Assembly (NCBI RefSeq): GCF_000427685.1
Contig: NZ_KE386573.1
Span: 1,534,938 to 1,598,937, forward strand
Reading direction: 5' to 3'
Origin: Haloplanus natans DSM 17983
Lineage (GTDB): Archaea; Halobacteriota; Halobacteria; Halobacteriales; Haloferacaceae
Length of the DNA: 64,000 bases
Position numbers and translations under genes: made by a program. Under the pieces are notes generated by a model that saw only the letters and a list, made by a program, of their open reading frames with translations, did no database searches and was not told where the DNA came from. Positions 17,821 through 20,736 of the stretch are shown in pieces (positions within the stretch are counted from its first letter, which is position 1; each line of letters opens with the position of its first letter).

Positions 17821-18142
17821 GTAGGATGGACTAGGTCGGGCAGTTAGGCCCTGCTCTTTCACCCGCACTACGGTCTTGAGCGGGGACCGAACCCGGGGGC
17901 GTCCGGTCAGACCGGTTCGGGCCTCGGGAGCCAACGTGGAAGCCTCGTCCTTCGGGGACAGCGGTCCGCGGCGCGCGTCCGCAGGGACGCTCCGTCGCGG
18001 TTCGTCGACGGCACCGGGCCAGGCGCGGAAGCGAGCAGCCCACCGCCGAACGCCAGTCGCTCGAAGGATCGCGGGGTGGAGGAGGCGACCGGGATTCCCC
18101 GCACCGGAACGCCGGGCAATCCCGCTGTCCACATTCCTATCA
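17821..18142 (+). ncRNA. ffs: signal recognition particle 7S RNA
   Basis: About 320 nt with no codon structure. Near the 5' end is gggcagttaggccctgc. The domain-IV (helix 8) core gccagg...ggaagc...agcagcc, the SRP54-binding asymmetric loop, is at about 18018-18041. The 5' region gtaggatggac (17821-17831) can pair with gtccacattcctat (18127-18140) to form archaeal helix 1. The RNA scaffolds SRP19 and SRP54 for membrane targeting. The ends are estimated from pairing, so allow about 10 nt. Confidence 0.88.
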
Positions 18143-18228
18143 TCCAAGAGCCCCGGCAGTGGCCAGCGTTGCCTCATAGCAAAATATGAATATCATGCGA
18201 ACCGATATCATGTATGAGGTTAACACTC

Positions 18229-18360
18229 ATGGTACGAGACGACGCGATACTCCTGAAACTCCGCGAGAAGTGTAGCGAGGGAAGCGACAACGCCTGCCGG
18301 ACGCTCGAACGACTCTGTGACGACGGCCGAGACGACGCCTGCGAGTACGTTCTGAAGTAA
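18229..18360 (+). CDS. 43-residue protein with two Cys-x7-Cys repeats
   Basis: A short ORF with good codon use, from the ATG at 18229 to TAA. It holds a tandem motif CSEGSDNAC and CDDGRDDAC, i.e. C-[SD]-[ED]-G-x-D-x-AC, each at the end of an amphipathic helix. The spacing resembles a single cysteine-stapled helix-turn-helix (Sel1-like Cys pattern) or a tiny metal knuckle. An AT-rich promoter-like stretch (aaaatatgaatatcat) lies 40 bp upstream. Family unknown; possibly functionally linked to the metal-type operator 280 bp downstream, which is inference. Confidence 0.6.
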   Translation: MVRDDAILLKLREKCSEGSDNACRTLERLCDDGRDDACEYVLK

Positions 18361-18508
18361 CCGACGACGTTTCTCGGCGCTCTCACCCGATCAGCCGTGG
18401 CCGTAGATGTCGGTACCGGCCGCCCCCCCATCGTCTCCGATCCAACTCCGCCGTCGCGTCCGGGCGAGCACTCGTCACGTTTTAGGCCGACCGAAAAAAC
18501 TTTTATTC

Positions 18509-18524
18509 TTTAGGCTAGCCTAAA
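18509..18524. promoter_or_regulatory. perfect 16-bp palindrome, DtxR/IdeR-type operator
   Basis: TTTAGGCTAGCCTAAA is an exact palindrome and matches the TTAGG-N4-CCTAA form bound by DtxR-family metalloregulators (IdeR, SirR, haloarchaeal Idr). A half site ttttaggc lies at about 18479-18486. It overlaps the region just downstream of an AT-rich TATA-like stretch (aaaacttttattc) and ends five bases before the leader ORF, so repression by steric block is plausible. Confidence 0.65.
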
Positions 18525-18528
18525 CAAT

Positions 18529-18591
18529 ATGCCAATCGATACGATCCACGCCGGACCCGTCGGCCGCCCATCCGCTACGGCTGGGAGGTAG
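18529..18591 (+). CDS. 20-residue leader peptide ORF
   Basis: ATG at 18529 to TAG at 18589-18591 encodes MPIDTIHAGP... followed by ten residues rich in Gly/Ala/Arg. It begins five bases after the palindromic operator and ends two bases before the ATG of the next gene, an arrangement suited to translational coupling or attenuation. Too short for family assignment. Confidence 0.5.
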   Translation: MPIDTIHAGPVGRPSATAGR

Positions 18592-18593
18592 GG

Positions 18594-19502
18594 ATGGTTG
18601 GACGAACGCTCGGCGACCTCCGGGAACGGATCGACGCCCTCGCGAGCAGCGACGGGCCCTTCTATCTCCGTTGTGCGCGTACGGGCGACCGACCCGTTCC
18701 CGCGGCGGGACGCCGGTTCGCGGCGCGCACCGACGCCCGGAAGGCCGCCCACGTCGTCGAGCGATACCGAGAGACCCTCCGTCGGTACGATCCGAACGTA
18801 CCGTACTACGACGTGATCGTGTGTCAGGTCGTCGCGTCGGACTCGCTCGGCGTCCCCTCCGATCGAACGTTCGAGGCAACGCTCTCGACGCCCGTCCTCG
18901 ACGCCGCGACGCCGCAGTCGTCGAACCGTGCGCTGGTCGAGTTCTGCCACCGGGTGGCTGCGGCGGTCTTCGAGAGCCTATCGGCCGCCGGGCACGACGC
19001 CGTCGAGGCGTCGACTATGGATGCGTACGCCCACCTCGCGGACGCCGTCACCGATCCCGACCGACTCTGTCTTCAACTGCTCGAACGGCTAGCGGCGGAC
19101 GTGGACGCGAGGCTGACCGCCGACGAACAGGCGGCGCTTCTCGATGCCGCCGCAACGCGTCTCGGGTCCCACCGATCAGCGACGGCGGAGCCGGTTTCGG
19201 CGACACTCAGCCACCTCGAAGACCACGGGGTGGTCGGAGCGCATCTCCGCTCCCCGTGGTCGATCGACCTCGACGACGGACGACGAGCCGTCGACGTTCG
19301 GCTCTCGGGATACGCGCTCTCACCTCGCGACGGCCGACTGCCCGTGCTTCCGCTGGCGGTCGACCTCTACCGCCGCCGGCCGGACTGGCCCCTGTCGTCG
19401 ATTCGTGTCGTCGACATCGGCGACGCGTGGCGAGTGTCGTTCGTCTTCCGACAGGCGTCCGATCCCGATGGCCTGGCGACGGCCCCGATCGACGAGGGGT
19501 AA
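18594..19502 (+). CDS. first large gene of a metal-operator operon, unknown function
   Basis: 302 residues. The N-terminal part (about 1-90) has GDLRERIDALASSDGPFYLRCARTGDRPVP (quoted across strands), then 'RRYDPNVPYYDVIV'. The middle is helical; the C-terminal part (about 195-295) reads as an alpha/beta domain ending in a DAWRVSFVF strand. It resembles haloarchaeal hypothetical families I recall as DUF7551/DUF7552 (unverified). It lies behind a DtxR-like palindrome and a leader peptide, and runs into the next gene with no gap, pointing to a shared metal-regulated function. Confidence 0.75.
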   Translation: MVGRTLGDLRERIDALASSDGPFYLRCARTGDRPVPAAGRRFAARTDARKAAHVVERYRETLRRYDPNVPYYDVIVCQVVASDSLGVPSDRTFEATLSTPVLDAATPQSSNRALVEFCHRVAAAVFESLSAAGHDAVEASTMDAYAHLADAVTDPDRLCLQLLERLAADVDARLTADEQAALLDAAATRLGSHRSATAEPVSATLSHLEDHGVVGAHLRSPWSIDLDDGRRAVDVRLSGYALSPRDGRLPVLPLAVDLYRRRPDWPLSSIRVVDIGDAWRVSFVFRQASDPDGLATAPIDEG

Positions 19503-19503
19503 C

Positions 19504-20286
19504 GTGGCGGTGAACACGATCGTTCGGCAGGCCCGAACGCGGGTGCGTGCCGAACGCGAGGCGGTCGACGCCAAGGCCGACGCGGTCGAGGCGTTTGCCG
19601 ACCGTATCGCCGATCTCACGGCGACGCCCCCATCGCCGCCACCGCTCGCCGCCACGGTAACCGCGGGCACGCCCCGCTCCCGCCAGTCCGACGACCGCTG
19701 TCGCGCGGTCCGGCAGGCGTTCGCCGACACGATCCGTCCCCACAGCGTCGCCGACGTGGCCGACGACGAACCCCTCCTCGAAACCGTTCGCGCCGAACTG
19801 TCCGACTCGATCGCCGTGGCGCTCGCTCCGACGACCGACCGATCGTTCTCGCCCGGCCTCAAGCGAGCAATCGTCTCGGCCACGAGCGACCGGCGGACCG
19901 AACTCGCGACCCTGGCCCGGGCGCTCGAACGCGAACGGACCGCCCTCGACGACGCCCAAGCGACCGTCGAAACCGTCACCGACTGGCTCCTCGACGCCGA
20001 CGAAACGCCGCTGACCGGCCTCGGGTTCGACGCGCTCCGGACGCGACACGAGACGCTCGCGACACACCGCAACCGGTGTACCGACCTCACCGACCGGCGG
20101 CAGGCGTTCCTCCGGGCAGCCACAGAGCGCTCCACGGGAACGCGGATCTCCCACCGCTCGCTCGGCCACTATCTCTACGAGGACTTCCCGGTCGACCATC
20201 CCGTTCTGGCTACCGCCACCCGCCTCGACTCGGTGTGTGTGTCGTGTCAACGAGCCGTCCGCGACCATCTCGTACGGAGGGCCTGA
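19504..20286 (+). CDS. coiled-coil-rich protein with a C-terminal CxxC, second gene of the operon
   Basis: 260 residues from the GTG at 19504 (GTG 19510 is an alternative). Nearly all helical: basic/acidic N-terminal coil (QARTRVRAEREAVDAKADAVEAF), a central segment with SFSPGLKRAIVSATSDRRTELA, a second coil, and C-terminal VCVSCQRAVRDHLVRR with a CxxC pair. It resembles the haloarchaeal family I recall as DUF7260 (tentative). It begins one base after the previous stop and overlaps the next gene (TGATG). Confidence 0.72.
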   Translation: MAVNTIVRQARTRVRAEREAVDAKADAVEAFADRIADLTATPPSPPPLAATVTAGTPRSRQSDDRCRAVRQAFADTIRPHSVADVADDEPLLETVRAELSDSIAVALAPTTDRSFSPGLKRAIVSATSDRRTELATLARALERERTALDDAQATVETVTDWLLDADETPLTGLGFDALRTRHETLATHRNRCTDLTDRRQAFLRAATERSTGTRISHRSLGHYLYEDFPVDHPVLATATRLDSVCVSCQRAVRDHLVRRA

Positions 20287-20396
20287 TGCGGCGACGACGA
20301 GGGTGTCTGTGGGCGGGTGTCTACGTCGGCCTCTTCGGGGCTCCGGACGACGACACGGACTCCGAAACGGAGCCGGCGGCGGAGTCGTCCGAGTGA
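20286..20396 (+). CDS. 36-residue protein, third gene of the operon
   Basis: The ATG shares its A with the TGA of the preceding gene. The protein has a basic start (MRRRRGC), a short hydrophobic segment (LWAGVYVGLFG) and a strongly acidic tail (DDDTDSETEPAAESSE), so it may be a small membrane-associated peptide. The tight coupling is the main support. Confidence 0.5.
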   Translation: MRRRRGCLWAGVYVGLFGAPDDDTDSETEPAAESSE

Positions 20397-20540: not shown

Positions 20541-20563
20541 ATGCGCCGGCCGGGATTTGAACC
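20541..20563 (-). repeat. duplicated 3' end of tRNA-Gly (att-like)
   Basis: 23 bp identical to 20665-20687, the T-arm 3' part and acceptor strand of tRNA-Gly, 124 bp downstream in the gene's own direction. Between them lies a partial inverted echo (ctcaaatc, 20613-20620). The rest of the 269 bp between 20397 and 20665 holds no gene I can support. Confidence 0.75.
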
Positions 20564-20665: not shown

Positions 20666-20736
20666 TGCGCCGGCCGGGATTTGAACCCGGGCCATGAGCT
20701 TGGAAGGCTCAGGTCCTACCACTAGACCACCGGCGC
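20666..20736 (-). tRNA. tRNA-Gly (anticodon TCC)
   Basis: 71 nt. The acceptor stem gcgccgg/ccggcgc is perfect with discriminator A. The D arm contains tctagtggtaggac. The anticodon stem tgagc/gctca has loop cttccaa, giving anticodon TCC for GGA codons. The T arm ccggg-ttcaaat-cccgg is canonical. CCA is not encoded. Confidence 0.95.

Follow-up and report, generated by a model that had tools for sequence, protein, structure and literature searches.

What acts at an archaeal promoter where a perfect palindrome is followed by a 20-codon open reading frame (ORF) and then by three further genes, and what do those 20 codons do? The question is raised by an operon of Haloplanus natans DSM 17983 lying in a 64,000-nucleotide stretch of contig NZ_KE386573.1 (positions 1,534,938 to 1,598,937, forward strand), which is referred to below as the window. 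A first-pass annotation, made from the letters of the window, described a perfect palindrome ahead of a leader ORF and an operon whose 302-residue, CxxC and 36-residue ORFs adjoin or overlap. All of these elements were located, with four bases between the palindrome and the leader ATG at 18529, together with a second, imperfect box which that annotation had overlooked:

18481-18496, no strand assigned: upstream imperfect box TTTAGGCCGACCGAAA, with one core mismatch, 28 bp before the proximal box.
18501-18506, plus strand: TATA-like element TTTTAT, at -28 to -23 from the leader ATG, read from the sequence.
18509-18524, no strand assigned: proximal perfect palindrome TTTAGGCTAGCCTAAA, a predicted DtxR-type operator (sequence, pattern search and conservation before orthologous operons).
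18529-18591, plus strand: 20-codon leaderless leader ORF encoding MPIDTIHAGPVGRPSATAGR, stop codon included, a predicted ribosome on-ramp (position and coupling statistics, congener comparison).
18594-19502, plus strand: 302-residue protein with DUF7552 (residues 5-79) and DUF7551 (residues 114-299) domains (Pfam 3.8e-32 and 9.3e-65).
19504-20286, plus strand: 260-residue all-helical DUF7260 protein with C245xxC248 near its C-terminus (Pfam 2.7e-76).
20286-20396, plus strand: 36-residue microprotein MRRRRGCLWAGVYVGLFGAPDDDTDSETEPAAESSE, whose start overlaps the DUF7260 stop (TGATG), found by profile search.

The archaeal SRP RNA gene is situated just upstream of the operon (17824-18134), and a 48-residue ORF with four cysteines, for which no family match was found, lies between it and the box (18214-18360). 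At the other end, a tRNA-Gly(TCC) gene is encoded on the minus strand; its end sequence, GCGCCGGCCGGGATTTGAAC, recurs as a 20-bp copy located 124 bp away and adjoining the end of the operon (20543-20562 and 20666-20736), an arrangement that looks like an integration scar.

The frequency of the box was assessed by pattern searches. Sites matching TTAGGN4CCTAA with at most one mismatch occur twice in the window, both at the operon promoter, for an expectation of 0.16; perfect sites number 11 in the whole genome, where the reversed control gives 1. Across 40 genomes of the order, TTTAGGN4CCTAAA occurs perfectly 258 times and its reversed control 7 times, these last two figures being sums over a per-genome count table. 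A chance palindrome is ruled out by these counts, and TTTAGGN4CCTAAA is a haloarchaeal box distributed genome-wide. Within the fetched loci, a single box out of 211 lies inside a called gene with no gene start downstream. The first-pass annotation had given TTAGG-N4-CCTAA as the site of DtxR regulators in general, which is inexact. In bacteria the DtxR/IdeR box, TTAGGTTAGSCTAACCTAA, is 19 bp long and made up of four CCTAA repeats (PMC10317159), a consensus to which the operon box TTTAGGN4CCTAAA does not conform. The iron box of Actinobacteria and the one described here have in common an inverted TTAGG...CCTAA at the promoter or start region, the company of DtxR-family genes and iron-uptake targets; they differ in length (14-16 bp here, with an N4 spacer, against a four-repeat box of 19 bp), in the inner spacer (4 bp in the haloarchaeal box, 9 bp in bacterial IdeR boxes) and in the frequent presence here of two boxes 36 bp apart around an archaeal TATA element. 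The operon box is best described as a shorter haloarchaeal variant of the DtxR/IdeR box.

Conservation of the palindrome was followed across 80 named DUF7551 loci, in about 75 of which a box heads the DUF7552-DUF7551 operon or lies upstream of it. In 49 of the 80 the gene has its own perfect box within 420 nt of its start; in 23 an iron-type gene precedes it, with a box no more than 5 kb upstream, and in 3 more it follows DUF5059 with a box. Lack of such conservation had been named in the first-pass annotation as grounds for rejecting its reading, and the reading withstands this check. Within the class, 168 of the 292 genomes sampled, covering 48 of 77 genera, encode DUF7551; DUF7260 follows it in at least 26 of the 80 loci and a DtxR gene is found downstream in at least 11, both counts being minima owing to limits of the clustering. 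Two of the loci, in Haladaptatus pallidirubidus, lie about 550 kb apart on one chromosome with identical operon layout and leader, which suggests either that a large region was duplicated recently or that the assembly produced the second copy.

The same box stands at the promoters of iron-uptake genes, and the genes linked to or neighbouring it are mainly Peripla_BP_2, SBP_bac_6/8, FecCD, ABC_tran, DUF5059, class-III aminotransferase, ferritin and Fe_dep_repress. In plasmid-borne copies, the two 'hypothetical proteins' have beside them genes that NCBI labels 'iron ABC transporter permease', 'ABC transporter substrate-binding protein', 'FAD-binding protein' and 'metal-dependent transcriptional regulator'. 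Versions of the operon in relatives include siderophore-binding proteins, FecCD and ABC genes and a DtxR-family (Idr-like) regulator, which makes control by an iron-type DtxR regulator a well-supported reading. The earlier suggestion of a metal regulator is thus supported, the box being kept before orthologous operons and also driving iron-uptake genes and operons that contain DtxR genes. A minority of box-linked genes has no obvious iron role, namely RGP and family-2 (GT2) glycosyltransferases in several genomes, and a gluconate dehydrogenase subunit gene whose iron role is likewise not obvious. The DtxR-family regulons described in haloarchaea (Idr1, Idr2 and SirR in Halobacterium; Idr, SirR and TroR in Haloferax volcanii; work cited in PMC11349517) resemble the present case in regulator family and in iron-uptake targets, siderophore ABC transporters included, and differ from it in that the module of DUF7552-DUF7551, DUF7260 and microprotein is not described in the parts of that literature available.

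Two DtxR-family homologues above the cut-off are encoded in the H. natans genome, and the names used for them here derive from reading of their sequences and from gene neighbours. The Idr-like gene adjoins Suf and ferritin-like genes; the SirR-like protein has an extended C-terminal part and its gene adjoins a membrane-protein gene. The presence of this second protein, together with the box-linked genes lacking a clear iron role, could be taken to mean that the box is bound by a manganese-type DtxR protein (SirR/MntR-like), or by an unrelated factor, and that the operon answers manganese or another signal. Such a reading is judged improbable, given that siderophore and iron-type transport genes, DUF5059 and ferritin-like genes dominate the company of the box, and that the regulator borne by the operon in relatives is 41% identical to the Idr-like protein and 31% to the SirR-like one. 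An Idr-like DtxR-family repressor responding to iron rather than manganese is the candidate favoured by the same observations.

An alignment of 129 box promoters, each with an ATG 3-6 nt past the box, served to place the boxes relative to the start. A T/A-rich TATA peak appears at -28 to -24 from the ATG and an A-rich element at -35 to -33, neither of which was selected for in making the alignment, the A-rich element partly overlapping the end of the distal box. A second upstream box is present in 65 of the 129, spaced by exactly 36 bp in 43 of those 65; the corresponding spacing in the window is 28 bp, where TTTTAT agrees in position with the TATA peak and is likewise flanked by TTTAGGCCGACCGAAA on one side and TTTAGGCTAGCCTAAA on the other. 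The TATA peak and the paired positions therefore put the distal box immediately before TATA and the proximal one after it, ahead of the start, a layout that would fit repression. A further 69 box-gene pairs have an ATG close to the end of the box, and in 49 of them it serves as the start codon of the gene, in frame; in 12 loci the start codon of DUF7551 lies no more than 6 nt from the box. These cases calibrate the start, indicating that transcripts from box promoters would be leaderless and that the leader ATG of the window would be a leaderless start.

Among 41 distinct DUF7551 loci with a spacer between box and gene, 25 carry an ATG 3-6 nt after the box (CCTAA), where 1.5 would be expected. 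The ORF opened by this ATG ends within -16 to +15 nt of the DUF7551 start in 16 of the 25 loci, compared with 7 of 50 other frames (Fisher p 2e-5), and none of 500 dinucleotide shuffles reached 16 (mean 4.8, maximum 10); as the loci are related these p-values are optimistic, the 16 coupled loci coming from some twelve genus-level lineages. The leader of the window terminates in the Shine-Dalgarno-like GGGAGGTAG, in a GGAGG context, with its stop 2 nt before the DUF7551 ATG. The coupled leaders range from 15 to 74 codons and their peptides do not align. What is constant is the position of the start and a stop beside the DUF7551 start, which argues for translational coupling. At five loci, coupled leaderless leaders were also seen ahead of box-bearing FAD-type or FecCD genes, and the on-ramp may be general to the box regulon.

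The first-pass annotation had proposed that the leader acts in attenuation, in which ribosome stalling within the 20 codons would sense an amino acid or metal and control transcription or translation of the operon. Its placement directly between operator and first gene invites this idea, but both sequence and length of the peptide are free to vary while start and stop positions are kept, the RNA fold is not unusual (z = 0.34) and no terminator-like site was found. An attenuator with a leader peptide, which calls for a conserved or biased peptide and a terminator or antiterminator, was rejected as a candidate, and attenuation is considered highly improbable. A second possibility is that the ATG is an accident of start-site context and that DUF7551 is translated independently from its own 5'-UTR. 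Leadered mRNAs can be translated in haloarchaea (PMC3986360), and some Haloferax loci and those of the Natrinema group keep the operon without a leader ORF; this account is nevertheless thought rather unlikely, as it fails to explain the enrichment of the ATG and the coupling of stop to start. Since loci, mainly of the Natrinema group, retain the box with no coupled leader ORF, the on-ramp is not obligatory.

Coupling of the kind proposed has precedents. In H. volcanii, Shine-Dalgarno sites are not used for de novo initiation (PMC3986360) and all 9 gene pairs tested showed strict termination-reinitiation (PMC6728339). The leader and DUF7551 resemble these pairs in their adjacent stop and start, the GGAGG before the downstream start and a translated upstream ORF as predicted, and depart from them in that the upstream 'gene' is a non-conserved leaderless ORF of 20 codons, apparently a stump, at a regulated promoter. 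Coupled leaderless uORFs are also known in mycobacteria (PMC4633059), where a short leaderless ORF likewise has its stop coupled to the next start and the coupling is kept more than the peptide; here the setting is archaeal and tied to one regulon, and a congener provides evidence for an origin by deletion of a first cistron.

The comparison covers three congeneric genomes, designated G101, G106 and G046. At the orthologous promoter of G101, in a near-identical GCGCTTTATTCTTTTAGG context, the ATG just past the box opens an intact, lipobox-bearing substrate-binding protein, and the gene order is this lipoprotein (its stop overlapping the DUF7551 start), DUF7551, DUF7260, microprotein, DtxR and a Dps/ferritin-like gene. 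In G106 the downstream genes are as in G101 and a 57-codon leader takes the place of the binding protein, whereas G046 and the window carry leaders of 27 and 20 codons, respectively, and no DtxR gene; neighbours common to G106, G046 and the window show that a single chromosomal site is involved. For the G106 leader, alignment to lipoprotein N-termini (MPN-DDTDGGPSTRWA against MPNGDDTPGGP-TRRA) gives a score matched by none of 300 shuffles and none of 600 other N-termini, and 20 of 26 bases are identical between G106 and G101 at equal distance from the box. For the window leader the similarity to lipoprotein N-termini is marginal (p about 0.05), and most other leaders have none, so that the stump origin is established for one congener and extended to the window by inference. 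On this basis the window leader is probably what is left of a siderophore-binding lipoprotein gene. The most economical history is a deletion that spared the beginning of the first gene, to which synteny points in the case of the window.

The domain assignments of the products are secure (Pfam bit scores of 218.6 for DUF7551, 110.8 for DUF7552 and 256.7 for DUF7260, against curated cut-offs of 52.6, 27 and 27), whereas NCBIfam gave no match for the operon proteins. DUF7260, DUF7551 and DUF7552 go unmentioned in the literature searched, and none of the three is named in the passages found of the H. volcanii iron proteome paper. In alignments, C27, C118, H119 and C159 of the DUF7552-DUF7551 protein are invariant and the CxxC of DUF7260 is near-invariant, residues that would allow both proteins to bind metal. 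AlphaFold2 models were obtained with pLDDT values of 87.6 and 82.4, respectively. No significant match that would point to what DUF7551 or DUF7260 does came from searches by sequence or fold; weak fold similarity was seen to H-NOX (best E 0.21, TM 0.31) and to V4R/MopR (MopR E 0.37), all fold matches having E > 0.03, so the resemblance to these sensor domains is treated as a lead. Six congeneric genomes also encode a PAS/HATPase histidine kinase with a DUF7551-like N-terminus, the ATG of which is abutted by a perfect TTTAGGN4CCTAAA box. Such a kinase makes a sensing role possible, and with the invariant Cys and His residues one might guess that the module senses or handles a metal or ligand. 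DUF7551 could accordingly be a sensor domain and not an uptake accessory, the operon forming the soluble arm of iron-response signalling alongside the kinase. The box-led kinase and the H-NOX and V4R/MopR similarities speak for such an arrangement, which is nonetheless considered unlikely: the kinase domain match covers about 75 residues and lies near the cut-off, the fold matches are weak, and the tie between kinase and operon is putative. A module accessory to siderophore-type iron uptake is preferred.

The 36-residue ORF was considered as a spurious call and this was ruled out, its relatives in the profile search all lying beside DUF7551 or DUF7260. Across all fetched loci about 25 distinct members were recovered, sharing a core RRxRxxxWxxxYLxLFG and an acidic tail; a few of the genes directly follow DUF7551, and in Halobacterium hubeiense and Halovenus salina the gene stands in front of DUF7551. 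Differences between congeners fall 18/21/50 over the three codon positions, a third-position bias consistent with selection on the protein. By these measures the ORF represents a real microprotein family, undescribed and unannotated until now.

Taken as a whole, the explanation that we regard as probable is an iron-regulon operon under Idr-like repression, with a leaderless on-ramp made from a lipoprotein-gene stump and a module induced by metal shortage. From the position and company of the boxes, a metal-loaded haloarchaeal DtxR-family (Idr-like) repressor would bind both boxes flanking TATA and block transcription, and would be released when metal is short. The transcript would then start at, or a few bases from, the leader ATG, on which ribosomes would load and translate 20 dispensable codons; termination 2 nt before the DUF7551 start, in the GGAGG context, would lead to reinitiation there, as the conserved architecture suggests. 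A leader working by such loading and reinitiation would be a translational on-ramp and not an attenuator, and it most likely descends from a first-cistron siderophore-binding lipoprotein gene deleted except for its start. The DUF7552-DUF7551 protein, the DUF7260 protein and the microprotein would constitute a conserved cytoplasmic module, induced by metal shortage and accessory to siderophore-type iron uptake. A bolder proposal, put forward tentatively and with more doubt than confidence, is that deleted first cistrons of regulated haloarchaeal operons persist as leaderless stump ORFs selected only for ribosome delivery, in an iron regulon where they serve translation of a new three-protein metal-responsive module (DUF7552-DUF7551, DUF7260 and the WxxxY-LFG microprotein), its fold serving also as input domain in a histidine kinase under iron-box control.

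The analysis links the iron regulon to three haloarchaeal families that lack annotation, among them a microprotein not listed before. The locus also lends itself to direct testing of how translation of an archaeal operon survives the loss of its first gene. As Shine-Dalgarno sites do not work de novo in H. volcanii, a leftover leaderless start could persist purely as a ribosome entry point and, if this is true, many of the 'leader peptides' seen in archaeal operons could be stumps of genes and not regulators.
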